DNA from: Stenotrophomonas maltophilia
Lineage (GTDB): Bacteria; Pseudomonadota; Gammaproteobacteria; Xanthomonadales; Xanthomonadaceae
Direction of reading: 5' to 3'
Assembly (NCBI RefSeq): GCF_039555535.1
Contig: NZ_CP154630.1
Span: forward strand, 633,001 to 697,000
DNA length: 64,000 nt
Shown here one piece after another: positions 2,709-46,616 of the stretch (position 1 is the stretch's first letter; every line of letters starts with the position of its first letter). The position numbers were made by a program, and so were the translations under genes. The notes under the pieces are model-generated. The model made no database searches. It had not been told where the DNA came from and saw nothing but the letters and a program-made list of their open reading frames with translations.

Positions 2709-2735
2709 AAACGCCGGCTTCCGCCGGCGTTTTTC
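2709..2735. terminator. Bidirectional hairpin terminator
   Basis: AAACGCCGGC TTCC GCCGGCGTTT followed by T residues on plus. It lies between the converging ThrE-family and H-NS-like genes and could serve both; the minus-strand tail (CTTGTTTG) is weaker. Confidence 0.75.
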
Positions 2736-2755
2736 ATTGCAATCTGATCCTGGCC

Positions 2756-3139
2756 TCAGGCCTTCTTGATCAGGAAATCTTCCGGCTTCTTGTTGCCCTT
2801 GGCGGTCAGCTCGGCCATCCAGCGCGGCTGCTTGCCACGACCGGTCCAGGTTTCCTTCGGGTTGGCCGGGTTGCGGTACTTCGGTGCCACCTTGCCCAGC
2901 TTGCGGCCGGCGGTCTTGGACGGTGCCTTGGCTGCCGGGGCGGCCTTGCGCGCGCGCGGGGCCGGGGCGCCGCCGAACAGTTCTTCGATGGTGTAACCCT
3001 CGGTCTTGGCCAGCTTGGTCAGCTGGGCCCGGACCTTGGTGATTGGCCGGCGCTTGGCGACGATGGTCTGCTGCTTCTTGGCGGTGCGGATCAGGGCGCC
3101 CAGTTCGCGTGCCGACAGGCCGGTCAGGTCAATGCTCAT
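2756..3139 (-). CDS. H-NS-family histone-like nucleoid protein
   Basis: 127 residues. The N-terminal ~50 residues are helical and charged (LSARELGALIRTAKKQQTI, then KVRAQLTKLAKTEGY). A lysine/alanine/proline linker follows (about 60-85). The C-terminus holds the H-NS DNA-binding core TWTGRGKQPRWMAELTAKG. The protein should bind AT-rich DNA and silence genes, as XrvA/XrvC-type proteins do in Xanthomonas; which paralogue this is cannot be told. The start ATG at 3139 is chosen because the helical domain begins there and a good sigma-70-like promoter sits 60-90 bases upstream. It is monocistronic, with its own promoter and a terminator on either side. Confidence 0.9.
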   Translation of the reverse strand: MSIDLTGLSARELGALIRTAKKQQTIVAKRRPITKVRAQLTKLAKTEGYTIEELFGGAPAPRARKAAPAAKAPSKTAGRKLGKVAPKYRNPANPKETWTGRGKQPRWMAELTAKGNKKPEDFLIKKA

Positions 3140-3200
3140 TTACGGTTACTCCGGAAACTAATGTGTGGACGGGACGAGCCAGTCCATGGCGTCGCAGCAC

Positions 3201-3229
3201 AGAATAGAGATGAATTATTCCAAGCACAA
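3201..3229 (-). promoter_or_regulatory. Candidate sigma-70 promoter of the H-NS-like gene
   Basis: On the minus strand TTGTGC (3229-3224) and TATTCT (3206-3201) are separated by exactly 17 bases, in an AT-rich patch upstream of the H-NS-like start codon. Confidence 0.5.
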
Positions 3230-3324
3230 ATGCAGACAGGACAGGGCTTGGCGACGTACCGGCTGCATTGCGTCGATTTTGACCGGATTATGTCCGCTGC
3301 AATATCGGTGACGTGGCGGAAACG

Positions 3325-3362: not shown

Positions 3363-5066
3363 TCAGCCCTGCAGTCGCTGCAGCAGGGTGGCCTTGTCCA
3401 GGCTTTCCGCTTCGCTGGCGCGGCGCGAGCGGTACTCGTAGGTACCGGCGGCCAGGCCACGCTCGCTCACCACCACGCGGTGCGGGATGCCGATCAGTTC
3501 CATGTCGGCGAACATCGCGCCCGGGCGCAGGCCACGGTCGTCCAGCGCGGCATCGAGGCCGGCGTCGCGAAGTTCCTGCAGCAGGCTGGACGCTGCATCG
3601 GCGACGGCAACGTCGCCCTTCGGGTTGATCACGCACACCACCACCTGCCACGGCGCCATCGCGTCCGGCCAGATGATGCCGGCATCGTCATGGTTCTGTT
3701 CGATCGCGGCAGCCACCACGCGCGAAATGCCGATGCCGTAGCAGCCCATCGCCATCACCGCGGCCTTGCCGTTCTCGTCCAGCACGGTGGCATCCAGTGC
3801 TTCGGCGTACTTGCGGCCGAGCTGGAATACGTGGCCGACTTCGATGCCGCGGGCGATCTTCAGTTCGCCGCCGTCCAGCGCGCGGTCACCGGCACGCACG
3901 TTGCGGATGTCGGCCACTTCCGGTTCCGGCAGGTCACGGCCCCAGTTGACGCCGGCCAGGTGGAAACCAGCTTCGTTGGCGCCGACGACGAAGTCGGACA
4001 TCGCGGCCACTTCGCGATCGGCGACCACGCGGATGGCCTTCGCAGGCGCGACCGGGCCGAGGAAGCCGGGCACGCTGCCCAGGTACTCGGCGATCTCTGC
4101 TTCGCTGGCAAAGCGTTGCTCGTCCAGGCCGGCGACCTTGGCCAGCTTGATCTCGTTGACTTCATGGTCGCCGCGCACCAGCACCAGCACGAACTGCTGT
4201 GCGTCGCCTTCGCCGGCGACCAGCGCCACCGACTTCACGGTGCGCTGCAGGTCGATGCCGAGCAGGGCCGCGACGTCCTCGCAGGTCTTCTGGGTGGGCG
4301 TGTCGACCTTGCGCATCGCTTCAGCGGCGGCCGCACGCGGGGCCGGATCGGCGCTGATCGCCGCTTCCATGTTGGCCGCGTAATCCGAGCCGGTGGAGAA
4401 CACCAGCGCGTCTTCGCCGGAATCGGCGATCACGTGGAATTCCTGCGAGGCATCGCCGCCGATCGCACCGGAGTCGGCCTGCACCATGCGGAAATCCAGG
4501 CCGAGGCGGGTGAAGATGCGGCTGTAGGCCGACTTCATGTTCTCGTACTCGCGCACCAGGCATTCATCATGCAGGTGGAACGAGTAGGCGTCCTTCATCA
4601 GGAACTCGCGCGAACGCATCACGCCGAAGCGCGGGCGGATCTCGTCGCGGAACTTGGTCTGCACCTGGTAGAAGTTCACCGGCAGCTGCTTGTAGCTGGA
4701 CAGCTCGCTGCGCGCGAAGTCGCAGGCGGCTTCTTCGGCGGTCGGGCTGTAGCAGAAGACCTGGTCCTTGCGGTCCTTGATCTTCAGCAGCTGCGGGCCG
4801 AACTTCTGCCAGCGACCGGTCTGCTCCCACAGTTCCTTCGGCTGGATGGTCGGGATCTGGAATTCCACGGCACCGGCACGGTCCATTTCCTCGCGCACGA
4901 TGCGCTCGACCTTGCGCAGCACGCGCAGGCCCAGCGGCGACCAGGTGTACAGGCCCGATGCAAGCTTGCGGATCATGCCCGCACGCAGCATCAGCCGGTG
5001 GCTGGTGAGCTCGGCGTCGCTGGGAGTTTCCTTGGTGGTGTGCAGGTGGAACTGGGAGAGGCGCAT
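3363..5066 (-). CDS. proS: Prolyl-tRNA synthetase
   Basis: 567 residues from the ATG at 5066, giving [20 protein letters not shown], the usual ProS N-terminus; the open frame upstream is not conserved protein. Class II synthetase motif 2 is seen as [20 protein letters not shown] and motif 3 as [20 protein letters not shown]. Between them lies the long insertion domain (about residues 220-410) that in bacterial ProS edits mischarged alanyl-tRNA. The C-terminal anticodon-binding domain follows motif 3 and ends in [10 protein letters not shown]. Length matches the family (~570). It charges tRNA-Pro in the cytoplasm. It stands alone, with a strong terminator downstream and the first composite palindromic element in the gap upstream. 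Confidence 0.97.
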
Positions 5067-5210
5067 CGTCGGCTTCGGATAACGGCAGAGACGCCTATTC
5101 TGCCAGCCCGGCCGGGGTGGGGGTACTGGCAGGGCTGCGCCCTGCACCCGCCTCAAGCAACGTCAACTGCAACTGCCGAAGCAACGGCAAAGGCGGACTT
5201 CCCGTGGGAT

Positions 5211-5312
5211 GGCGGGGTGGGTCCGGTTGCGGGGGACGCCGTAAATACGTCCCTGTAGGCTCGGTCGCGCCATCCATGGCGCTCACGCCCCCGCAACCGG
5301 ACCCACCCCGCC
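5211..5312 (+). repeat. Long hairpin, copy 1
   Basis: A perfect 25-bp stem pairs 5211-5235 with 5288-5312. The 52 bases inside hold the conserved segment ACGCCGTAAATACGTCCC, then GGCTCGGTC, then a nested hairpin GCGCCAT CC ATGGCGC (5267-5282). Confidence 0.9.
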
Positions 5313-5344
5313 TTCGACGGTTTTCCGCGATCTGTCGCCCTTTT

Positions 5345-5369
5345 GTAGAGCCGAGCGATGCTCGGCTTT
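5345..5369 (+). repeat. SMAG unit
   Basis: Single GTAGAGCCGAGCGATGCTCG unit between the two long hairpins of element I. Confidence 0.8.
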
Positions 5370-5407
5370 TCGATCAATTCTCGAAATATTCGATTTCCAT
5401 GGAGATT

Positions 5408-5431
5408 CATCCACGCATGGCGTGGATCTAC
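5408..5431 (-). repeat. SMAG unit, GTAGATCCACGC subtype
   Basis: On minus it reads GTAGATCCACGCCATGCGTG. The same subtype recurs at 21293, 46251 and 48340. Confidence 0.8.
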
Positions 5432-5455
5432 CACCGTCACCAGGAACCTGTCGGA

Positions 5456-5559
5456 GGTGGGGTGGTGTGGGCTGGCAGGACCGTTGGCGCCATGGATGGC
5501 GCCATCGAGCCCCCATGGAAGGGTTTACGGCGTGTCCTGCCAGCCCACACCGCCCCGCC
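5456..5559 (-). repeat. Long hairpin, copy 2 (inverted relative to copy 1)
   Basis: A 26-bp stem pairs 5456-5481 with 5534-5559, with two G-T wobbles. The arm sequence differs from copy 1. The inner hairpin is GGCGCCAT GG ATGGCGCC (5486-5503). The conserved segment is present as its reverse complement (GGGTTTACGGCGT). Confidence 0.9.
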
Positions 5560-5641
5560 AAACCCACAGAAAGCCCGTAGCCGGCTGTTGACGTTGCCGT
5601 TGCTTGAAGCAGGTGCAGGGCTGCAAGCCCTGCCGATACCC

Positions 5642-6016
5642 TCACTCCGCCGGGCAATACGCCTTGATGGCCGCTTCCGCCAACCCCTTCTGCGCGCTGC
5701 GCTGTTCCGGGGTCAACGCGGTATCGGGCTTGCCGTCGCCATCGGTGTCGTGCATCACCTGGCCGGAGCCTTCCAGCAGGGCCAGGTTGGCACGGGCGGT
5801 GCTGCACTGTTCCGGCACCGGCGCGGCCGGTGTCTCGGCGCTGGCCGCGGCCTGAGGGCTGCGGGCCTGCTCGCGGGTCTCGAATTTCTTGCCGGCCGGC
5901 GGGGTCTCCGAGTACTGGGTCACGCCATTGGCGTCCTTCCATTTATAGACCGGGCCGGCCACGGCGTTGGCACTGGCCAACAGCAGCAGGCATCCAAGGC
6001 AGGACAGGGCACGCAT
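5642..6016 (-). CDS. Secreted DUF4124-domain protein
   Basis: 124 residues from the ATG at 6016. I chose that start because GGAG lies 6 bases upstream of it, and because MRALSCLGCLLLLASANAVA is a clean signal peptide. The mature part begins GPVYKWKDANGVTQYSETPP, the DUF4124 pattern (an aromatic and KW-D-G-Q-YS-PP motif) found in many small periplasmic proteins of gammaproteobacteria. A linker rich in alanine and proline and two cysteines (EQCSTARANLALL, AYCPAE) follow; they may form a disulfide. A DTDGDGKPDT segment resembles a calcium-loop. Function unknown. It faces pssA divergently across 80 bases. Confidence 0.8.
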   Translation of the reverse strand: MRALSCLGCLLLLASANAVAGPVYKWKDANGVTQYSETPPAGKKFETREQARSPQAAASAETPAAPVPEQCSTARANLALLEGSGQVMHDTDGDGKPDTALTPEQRSAQKGLAEAAIKAYCPAE

Positions 6017-6096
6017 GGCAAACTCCATGGAATGGGCGTAGAACGCCGATTGCAGCATTGGCGCCGAGCACTGGCAAGTCGATTAAACTGGATTCC

Positions 6097-20921: not shown

Positions 20922-21053
20922 ATTGTGTGGTCAATCCGTGAGCAAGCGCATGGTTCCGGGATTCAGGCGGAGAGCGCGCTGCGCGCGGTCGGCGGCCATC
21001 GGCGGAGCCCCTCGTGGCTGGGGCTTTCCGCGAACAGGGGATTTCTGGAGGTT

Positions 21054-21157
21054 GGCCGGGTGGGTGGGCTGCGCAGGGGACGCCGTGAATACGTCCCTGT
21101 AGGCTCGGGCGCGCCATCCATGGCGCTTACGCCCCTGCGCAGCCCACCCGCCCGGCC
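21054..21157 (+). repeat. Long hairpin, copy 3
   Basis: A 26-bp stem pairs 21054-21079 with 21132-21157, one wobble. The arm sequence (GGCCGGGTGGGTGGGCTGCG at its start) is unlike copies 1 and 2. The inner segment ACGCCGTGAATACGTCCC and inner hairpin GCGCCATCCATGGCGC are conserved. Confidence 0.9.
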
Positions 21158-21260
21158 ACGGACAGGTTCCTGCGCGGCCAGCCACGGAAGACAGAACAAA
21201 AAGTCAAAAGCAGAAGCCGGTCGCTGCGCTCTTCAATGCCTGACTTCTGAGATTTCCCTG

Positions 21261-21316
21261 GTTGCCGGCCAGCGGCCGGCACTACCGGCGAGCATCCACG
21301 CATGGCGTGGATCTAC
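21261..21316 (-). repeat. Two SMAG units between hairpin copies 3 and 4
   Basis: On minus: GTAGATCCACGCCATGCGTG (21316-21293) and GTAGTGCCGGCCGCTGGCCG (21285-21261), two subtypes in tandem. Confidence 0.75.
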
Positions 21317-21339
21317 CGCAGATCGCGAAATCTGTCGAA

Positions 21340-21441
21340 GGCGGGGTGGGTCCGGTGGCGGGGGTGTCCGCGGCATGGATGCCGCGGCCAAGCCCCCAAG
21401 GACGGGTTTACGGCGTCCCCCGCCACCGGACCCACCCCGCC
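21340..21441 (-). repeat. Long hairpin, copy 4 (inverted)
   Basis: A perfect 25-bp stem pairs 21340-21364 with 21417-21441. It differs from copy 1 by one base pair, changed on both arms. The inner hairpin is a new sequence, CCGCGGCAT GG ATGCCGCGG (21368-21387). Confidence 0.9.
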
Positions 21442-21469
21442 ATCCCACGGGAACCCAGCTTTTGCTTTG

Positions 21470-21514
<45 letters not shown>

Positions 21515-21569
21515 CTGGCCTCGGCGGGTGCCGGGCGCCGCCCGGCCAAAGCCCTTCCCCCGCTTCCGG

Positions 21570-45999: not shown

Positions 46000-46047
46000 G
46001 GGGTTTATGGCCGGGCTGCGCCCGGCACCCGCAGAGGCCGGAGCTGG

Positions 46048-46080
<33 letters not shown>

Positions 46081-46097
46081 GGGTTTTACTGAGGGAT

Positions 46098-46201
46098 GGC
46101 GGGGCGGTGTGGGTTGGCAGGACACGCCGTAAACCCGTCCCAGGGGGCTCGATGGCGCCATCCATGGCGCCAACGGTCCTGCCAACCCACACCGCCCCGC
46201 C
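46098..46201 (+). repeat. Long hairpin, copy 5
   Basis: A perfect 26-bp stem pairs 46098-46123 with 46176-46201. It differs from copy 2 by a compensated base pair (T-A for C-G). Conserved segment ACGCCGTAAACCCGTCCC; inner hairpin GGCGCCATCCATGGCGCC (46154-46171). Confidence 0.92.
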
Positions 46202-46225
46202 TCTGACAGATTCCCGTGGCTGTTG

Positions 46226-46275
46226 GTAGGTGTCGACCTTGGTCGACACGGTAGATCCACGCCATGCGTGGATGA
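46226..46275 (+). repeat. Two SMAG units between hairpin copies 5 and 6
   Basis: GTAGGTGTCGACCTTGGTCG (46226) and GTAGATCCACGCCATGCGTG (46251), two subtypes in tandem. Confidence 0.8.
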
Positions 46276-46304
46276 CTGTCTGTCAGATTTCGAAATCAGG
46301 AAAT

Positions 46305-46345
46305 GGGGTCAGATCCGTTTTCCGAAGGAAAACGGATCTGACCCC
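46305..46345. repeat. Perfect 19-bp inverted repeat
   Basis: GGGGTCAGATCCGTTTTCC, GAA, and its exact complement. Unrelated to SMAG; it sits inside element III beside hairpin copy 6. Confidence 0.9.
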
Positions 46346-46484: not shown

Positions 46485-46616
46485 AACTCCAAGGAACCCA
46501 GCTTCTGCTTCGGCTGTTGCTGTTGCTCCGACCCCGGCCTGAAGCGGGTGCCGGGTGCAACCCGGCCGATACCCTCCCAGTGCTAGGCTGTGGCCACCGA
46601 CAACCACGGAGGCGGG

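Follow-up and report, generated by a model that had tools for sequence, protein, structure and literature searches.

Organization of the composite islands

The DNA analysed here is a 64-kb stretch of Stenotrophomonas maltophilia (64,000 nucleotides, the window), in which two co-directional genes (3363-5066 and 5642-6058, both on the minus strand) enclose an intergenic composite of repeats, composite I, at 5129-5633. A sequence-only reading of the window had placed composite I between genes that it took for proS and a DUF4124 gene, and had described it as a mirror-symmetric array of palindromes, short repeats and long hairpins around SMAG units, and every one of these parts was recovered at its position. 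The long hairpins are referred to here as Y-hairpins, and the strand on which their terminal loops read A-N-GGA-Y as the ANGGAY strand. Composite I comprises the following features:

5129-5145, no strand, left outer REP-like palindrome GCAGGGC-TGC-GCCCTGC, read in the sequence
5155-5193, plus strand, GCAAC-type short repeats, left outer arm
5207-5316, minus strand (ANGGAY strand), left TwoAYGGAY-like Y-hairpin, hexaloops C-ATGGAT-G and C-AGGGAC-G
5345-5367, plus strand, SMAG-like unit GTAGAGCCGAGCGATGCTCGGCT, inside
5409-5431, minus strand, SMAG-like unit of GTAGATCCACG type, inside
5452-5563, plus strand (ANGGAY strand), right TwoAYGGAY-like Y-hairpin, hexaloops C-ATGGAT-G and C-ATGGAA-G
5587-5603, minus strand, right outer arm, in which the GCAAC-type repeats are mirrored
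5615-5633, no strand, right outer REP-like palindrome GCAGGGC-TGCAA-GCCCTGC

SMAG repeats, which the same reading had mentioned for this species, are described for S. maltophilia in the available part of PMC2613905, and SMAG-like units lie inside composite I. The layout had also been said to recur at two other places in the window; this holds in full at 46.0-46.6 kb (composite III), and at 21.0-21.5 kb (composite II) for the right half, the left half having no REP/GCAAC block seen in it and an outer arm of another type instead. Composite III, like composite I, lies between co-directional genes, and composite II between divergent genes. The features of composites II and III are:

21001-21021, plus strand, composite II left outer arm of the second type (GGCGGAGCCCCTCGTGGCTGG; CCCCTCGTGG type)
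21050-21161, minus strand (ANGGAY strand), composite II left Y-hairpin
21261-21317, no strand, two SMAG-like units inside composite II (21261-21286 and 21294-21317)
21336-21445, plus strand (ANGGAY strand), composite II right Y-hairpin
21473-21514, minus strand, composite II right outer arm, seven GTTGCC units
21528-21546, no strand, composite II right outer REP-like palindrome
46009-46029, no strand, composite III left outer REP-like palindrome
46049-46080, plus strand, composite III left outer arm, GCAACA repeats
46094-46205, minus strand (ANGGAY strand), composite III left Y-hairpin, one tip TGGGAC, off consensus
46225-46345, no strand, composite III interior, with two SMAG-like units (46225-46249 and 46250-46273)
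46305-46345, GGGGTCAGATCC palindrome of the composite III interior, resembling the ends of a Y1-transposase element in locus L031
46379-46488, plus strand (ANGGAY strand), composite III right Y-hairpin
46516-46526, minus strand, composite III right outer arm, GTTGC repeats
46548-46566, no strand, composite III right outer REP-like palindrome

When each of the six window hairpins was compared with 200 shuffles, fold z-scores ranged from -7.9 to -9.6 and none of the 200 shuffles was as good. A gathering-score Rfam scan of the 64-kb window gave 0 matches, and an E-value scan of L050, the locus containing composite I, gave weak matches, none of them to TwoAYGGAY.

Copy number, pairing and order of parts

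A covariance model built from the six window hairpins (R1), the check that the sequence-only reading had proposed, was run on the whole 4.83-Mb genome and identified at least 134 copies of the Y-hairpin (150 of 2818 candidates scored). Joining hairpins less than 1500 nt apart into one cluster yielded 92 clusters, comprising 42 pairs and 50 singles (27 on the plus strand and 23 on the minus strand). All 42 pairs share the same mirrored, convergent orientation (p ~5e-26 against random orientation), and the spacing within pairs is 119-254 nt with a single exception of 856 nt. Six of the 50 singles (L037, L045, L077, L080, L082 and L126) retain faint remains of a partner, oriented as expected, with a second model, R2, applied to 10 of the 50; the two models conflict on the strand of the single in L092, the single in L118 has a weak match in the opposite orientation, and at L115 the mirrored outer arm appears by eye to be kept without its hairpin. 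The outer ends at L115 (TAGTTTCCAGCCAACGG and its mirror) also seem by eye to overlap with the stop codons of the convergent genes on either side.

The remaining parts keep a fixed order around the hairpins. Within 130 nt of the 134 hairpins, GCAAC repeats were found outside rather than inside (64 vs 2), as were REP-like palindromes (80 vs 3) and CCCCTCGTGG-type arms (23 vs 0), and the reverse was true of SMAG-like motifs (5 outside vs 86 inside) and of GGGGTC-type palindromes (1 vs 43). The composite is thus a real arrangement and a long way from what chance would produce. An accidental accumulation of repeats with no relation to one another, in gaps that tolerate them, is hardly credible: the parts are also found apart, 50 of the 92 clusters hold one full hairpin, and in another genome, G592, 127 of the 150 copies listed are without a neighbour within 400 nt, but the uniform orientation of the pairs (42/42) and the fixed order of parts have already refuted it for this genome. 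Parts occurring with no regard to order or pairing, which the sequence-only reading had set down as evidence against itself, are not what this genome contains, but pairing is not universal, as G592 shows.

Stems of the same pair were more than 85% identical in 0 of 42 pairs, compared with 11.6% of cross-pairings (p 0.006), and partners without common stem sequence are expected if each hairpin must fold alone. By a simple coding score, 21 of the 42 pairs lie between convergent genes, 18 between co-directional and 3 between divergent ones; against a small baseline from the window, where 3 of the 24 gaps longer than 60 nt are convergent, this is an excess of convergent gaps (Fisher p 0.003). A two-way transcription stop or a protector of mRNA 3' ends, acting through strong RNA hairpins and without RsmA, would fit this excess, the strand-symmetric layout and the centre of L116, which looks terminator-like by eye; it would leave unexplained the two conserved ANGGAY loops, the mismatch asymmetry and the three-way junction described below, and the three composites of the window lie in gaps of the other two kinds. 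We consider such a role quite unlikely as the main explanation. Among singles between co-directional genes, the ANGGAY strand was sense in 14 and antisense in 11, with no strand preference.

Fold and loops of the Y-hairpin

An alignment of 30 diverse copies, read on the ANGGAY strand, showed that the Y-hairpin is a three-way junction of a 27-pair stem and two arms (called arm 2 and arm 3), with compensatory changes at 40 of the 42 base pairs. The stem (~25-30 bp among copies) is free in sequence and keeps its complementarity; one arm consists of 7 pairs and a hexaloop, and the other has 3+3 pairs, a bulge of 5 nt and likewise a hexaloop. The loops of 127 of the 134 hairpins could be read by script (7 could not). 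Arm 3 has the loop ATGGAT in 120 of these 127, and arm 2 has A-N-GGA-Y in nearly all of them with all four bases occurring at N, its variation being confined mostly to this N and the last base: position 1 is A in 125, position 2 is G in 45, T in 57, A in 20 and C in 5, positions 3-5 are G in 125, G in 127 and A in 126, and position 6 is C in 84, T in 39 and A in 4. Frequent arm-2 twelve-mers are TACATGGACGTA and CCCATGGATGGG. Both tips of the ANGGAY strand are A-N-GGA-Y hexaloops, matching the consensus of RsmA/CsrA sites; selections with CsrA and RsmE yield RUACARGGAUGU and (A/U)CANGGANG(U/A). Kissing between the loops of partners was considered and is unsupported, the same N being present in 8 of 40 pairs against 13.1 expected.

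In several copies, palindromic insertions of ~80 nt were seen by eye inside a hexaloop, directly after ANGG on the ANGGAY strand and with two bases lost, in arm 3 in L171 and L178 and in arm 2 in L172, L103, L126, L209 and L212. These insertions seem to be a second repeat family that targets the loop. In L188, where a contig ends within the hairpin, a long G run is followed by a long C run; the strong fold has probably misled the assembly there.

Occurrence in other genomes

R1 was positive in 49 of 61 Stenotrophomonas genomes, and, with 12 candidates scored per genome, in 74 of the order's 299 genomes, which fall into 24 of its 85 genera; in genus g8, five genomes gave no R1 match at the same number of candidates. 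The exact arm-2 pattern was present in 31 of the 369 genomes of the class and in 27 of 271 genera, each of these genomes giving 0 with a reversed control; records among the matches listed came from Xanthomonas, Arenimonas, Alteromonas, Microbulbifer, Marinobacter, Shewanella, Rheinheimera, Halopseudomonas, Methylotuvimicrobium and Yersinia proxima. The Xanthomonas records include alternating hairpin arrays (L293, L325) and pairs (L245, L269, L292) in both pair orientations.

Across 100 named gammaproteobacterial loci, R2 found 135 hairpins in 93, and 32 neighbours within 400 nt were mirrored as here in 20 cases, opposite in 5 and on the same strand in 7 (p 8e-6 against random). Genome G592 is rich in the element: all 150 scored candidates were Y copies, and the arm-2 pattern matched 263 times. 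Among the G592 matches listed, 10 of 12 neighbours within 400 nt were on the same strand and 2 were opposed; mirrored pairing is not universal. The ANGGAY strand in G592 was, if anything, antisense both to the upstream gene (20 vs 10) and to the downstream gene (19 vs 11), according to rough ORF calls at the 30 best-scoring loci. A sense bias of the ANGGAY strand relative to genes was therefore dropped as a candidate, there being none for the singles here and none in G592.

Strand asymmetry of stem mismatches

A stem mismatch that reads as G.U on one strand reads as A.C on the other, and the two strands of the Y-hairpin differ greatly in this respect. In this genome, stem mismatches were G.U on the ANGGAY strand in 77 cases and on the other strand in 7, with 38 of other kinds (hairpins with more than 6 arm differences, ~5 of 134, being dropped), and these came from 49 and 7 distinct contexts, respectively. 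The asymmetry was retained without the commonest column (51 vs 7) on both strands, the counts by strand and chromosome half being 10:4, 17:1, 21:1 and 3:1. Other genomes gave 53 vs 6 with 20 of other kinds, from a set of 46 copies before the poorly paired ones were dropped. For these searches R1 was built on the strand opposite ANGGAY and works against the observed bias. The named gammaproteobacterial loci gave 144 vs 14 in 109 of their 135 hairpins (26 dropped for length or differences), a set biased in favour by R2, which was built on the ANGGAY strand.

In line with these counts, RNA of the ANGGAY strand was more stable than its complement in 85 of 134 hairpins (mean -2.24 kcal/mol), a difference that vanished (+0.11) once the stems were made perfect in silico, and in the named loci the ANGGAY-strand fold was more stable in 111 of 125. 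The ANGGAY-strand fold appears to be under selection, as RNA or possibly as single-stranded DNA. Other kinds of mismatch share the lean, with G.G on the ANGGAY strand in 11 cases against C.C in 1 and A.G in 18 against C.U in 6, the milder forms falling on the ANGGAY strand; because they lean alike, a strand-linked mutation bias, with an excess of changes at C positions of the ANGGAY strand, could also give the asymmetry.

Relationship to TwoAYGGAY and to CsrA/RsmA systems

TwoAYGGAY (RF01731) was listed in 2010 from gut samples, gammaproteobacteria and Clostridiales, with its role unknown, and was graded as probably an RNA and probably not cis-regulatory (PMC2864571, in the part available). 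Sequestration of CsrA by this motif has been proposed as a hypothesis for validation in the available part of PMC4333381, which also mentions two tandem G.A pairs in one TwoAYGGAY stem. A search of the genome with RF01731 matched 22 Y-hairpins, all on the ANGGAY strand, when 150 of 302 candidates were scored; one of them reached 44 bits, above the curated score of 43, and the other 21 of the 22 stayed below it. At E <= 10, 22 of the 23 rows fell on Y-hairpins, and the 23rd adjoins the single hairpin of L080, where R2 sees a weak partner; none of the matches at this threshold, among the same candidates, was one of the six window hairpins. With the threshold kept equally loose, 1 of 14 control genomes was matched, below the cut-off.

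The Y-hairpin shares with TwoAYGGAY two terminal GGA hexaloops on one closing stem and an occurrence in Gammaproteobacteria. At loop position 2, a pyrimidine in AYGGAY, arm 3 conforms with T or C in 124 of 127, whereas in arm 2 all bases occur there (a purine in 65 of 127, T or C in 62), and the Y-hairpin further differs in its at least 134 copies, its inverted pairs and its composite islands. The sequence-only reading knew of no name for the whole composite; its long hairpin is now placed near a named RNA motif, and the strand with the better-preserved fold hints at a role as RNA. The parts of the TwoAYGGAY literature covered contain no mention of Stenotrophomonas repeats, of such copy numbers, of inverted pairs or of composite islands.

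Paired ANGGA hairpin loops, as in RNAs that sequester RsmA/CsrA, are present in the Y-hairpin, and GGA hairpin loops of this kind are likewise found in CsrB/CsrC, RsmX/Y/Z and RsmU; the Y-hairpins differ in being modules scattered in many copies instead of a single sRNA gene. According to the available part of PMC7694677, Xanthomonas is without a homologue of CsrB/RsmX/Y/Z, and RsmU is an RsmA-sequestering RNA from a 3' UTR. SMAG/GTAG REP elements are palindromes of 20-40 bp with a GTAG end; SMAG-like units carrying GTAG lie in the composite interior, but the Y-hairpin is ~110 nt long with no GTAG tag, GTAG being absent from its ends in the alignments read. A csrA gene was found in 19 of the 20 genomes tested, and its presence is useless as a discriminator, as it was also present in the 8 tested genomes in which R1 found no copy.

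Mobility and turnover between strains

Orthologous gaps were compared across strains, as the sequence-only reading had suggested for locating insertion endpoints, with hairpins counted at E <= 1e-12. The gap of composite I held two hairpins at 15 of 30 loci, one at 9 and none at 6 (2 of the 6 cut by contig ends), and that of composite III held two at 12 of 30, one at 10 and none at 8. At one place the right-hand stems are not the same in all strains, and there are deletions and hybrid hairpins (L169, L179; all by eye); in two composite III gaps (L209, L212) an interrupted hairpin reaches the contig end. Between strains the gaps were full, half, rearranged or empty, as would be expected of the recombining unit suggested in that reading. 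In L190, one palindrome and no island stand in place of composite I, which may be the scar of a deletion or an empty site; both palindrome and island are missing from L192 and L194, and a clean empty site for composite I was accordingly rejected. The empty composite III gaps L222-L224 are too diverged to fix endpoints.

The genome has four Y1-transposase (PF01797) genes, and no Y-hairpin match at E <= 1 lies within ~1.5 kb of any of them, which agrees, as regards the Y1 family, with the earlier remark that no transposase is nearby. The Y-hairpin as a TIR of the transposase genes of S. maltophilia, whose linked TIR repeats are treated in the available part of PMC3733652, was rejected, the four Y1 genes having other flanking repeats. 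In L031 (1296-2118; source genome ~1216.9-1217.8 kb), a Y1-transposase gene of 248 aa is flanked by self-complementary 42-nt inverted repeats (GGGGTCAGATCC..), perhaps an element of the TIRYT 1152 type of PMC3733652, and motifs like these repeats adjoin 43 of the 134 hairpins on the inside. Repeats like the ends of this element are thus part of the composite interior, but the Y-hairpin adjoins none of the four Y1 genes. Near another Y1-transposase gene, L032 carries a 113-bp tandem array composed of SMAG-like units (2719-3283).

In G592, a non-coding element of 165 bp accounts for 16 of the 30 best-scoring Y copies; its inverted ends, CAGCAATTCCCAATTTGG and TCAAACTGGGAATTGCTG (CAGCAATTCCCAATTT), match at 16 of 18 nt. 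Direct repeats of 8-11 nt were found at 12 of the 16 copies (at the remaining 4 the script found no right end), with a core of 9 nt by eye that is also visible in three of those four. Because the inverted ends lie outside the Y, the Y of G592 is, to judge from this arrangement, cargo of a 165-bp MITE. Such a setting invites comparison with MITEs in general, from which the Stenotrophomonas islands differ in that their ends are REP-like palindromes and that no target duplication was recognised in the gaps read. A second Y-carrying unit of G592 (among L358-L386, e.g. C1:3508890-3509454) starts with CTGTGAAAG, ends with CATGAACGTTA, is mostly preceded by TTA or TA and is repeated at 227-nt spacing in places; this unit, too, may be a MITE, one that duplicates a short target.

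These observations bear on whether the Y-hairpin is mainly a DNA substrate, a single-strand fold with no RNA role that would be recognised in trans by an HUH-type or other transposase, the GGA loops serving as recognition letters. The MITE-borne copies with direct repeats in G592, the loop insertions directly after ANGG, the four Y1-transposase genes of the genome and the lack of a sense-strand bias relative to genes are all in its favour, and G.T mismatches are mild in single-stranded DNA too. On the other hand, the hairpin is absent near all four Y1 genes, the arm-2 loop with its free N has the CsrA consensus, and the Y lies inside the inverted ends in G592 as cargo. We regard a mainly DNA-level role as unlikely.

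Putative mode of action

Fold, loop consensus, mismatch asymmetry, copy number, pairing, order, turnover and, in one other genome, MITE-borne copies are read from the sequences themselves; transcription, RsmA binding, titration and the way in which the Stenotrophomonas island moves are inferred. The island core would be a structured RNA element, a relative of TwoAYGGAY, present in two opposed copies, of which RNA from the ANGGAY strand would hold an RsmA/CsrA dimer by two side-by-side A-N-GGA-Y hexaloops. A transcript running through a paired island, from either side, would copy the UCC-loop mirror first and the GGA-loop Y second, so that the inverted copies would give one GGA module per crossing transcript, whichever side it comes from. 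This second Y would bind the RsmA dimer, and crossing transcripts would thereby bind or titrate RsmA. The modules would spread and reshuffle as non-coding mobile or recombining units, with SMAGs and other repeats lying between them. That two opposed TwoAYGGAY-related modules act in this way, binding or titrating RsmA/CsrA through island transcripts and moving or recombining, seems to us somewhat probable.

Several results temper the RsmA part of this proposal. Transcripts of convergent genes that stop in the middle of an island would carry only the copy without GGA loops, which counts against it; the lack of sense bias among singles or in G592 and the presence of csrA in genomes both with and without the Y-hairpin weaken it, and confidence in it is lowered slightly because no window hairpin matches RF01731 and because other mismatch kinds share the strand bias.

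The finding is more general than the sequence-only reading had supposed, namely a many-copy composite, mobile-looking and related to an orphan RNA motif, and it ties a large class of Stenotrophomonas intergenic repeats to the named motif TwoAYGGAY. With at least 134 natural relatives, strand asymmetry and strain turnover, the CsrA-sponge proposal (PMC4333381, in the part available) becomes directly testable. If the RsmA reading is true, repeat expansion and a global regulator would be linked within a family in which the genus Xanthomonas is reported to have no CsrB/RsmX/Y/Z homologues (PMC7694677, in the part available). A broader form, possible and rather doubtful in our view, is that the Xanthomonadaceae, like other Gammaproteobacteria, would titrate RsmA/CsrA through a mobile RNA family of many copies in place of one or two dedicated sRNA genes. 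Its MITE-like islands, selfish or domesticated, would supply a dual RsmA site to transcripts of ~100 gene neighbourhoods, and, the islands being mirrored, the direction of insertion would be irrelevant.

Four viral contigs (L344-L347) contain the arm-2 pattern of the Y-hairpin.
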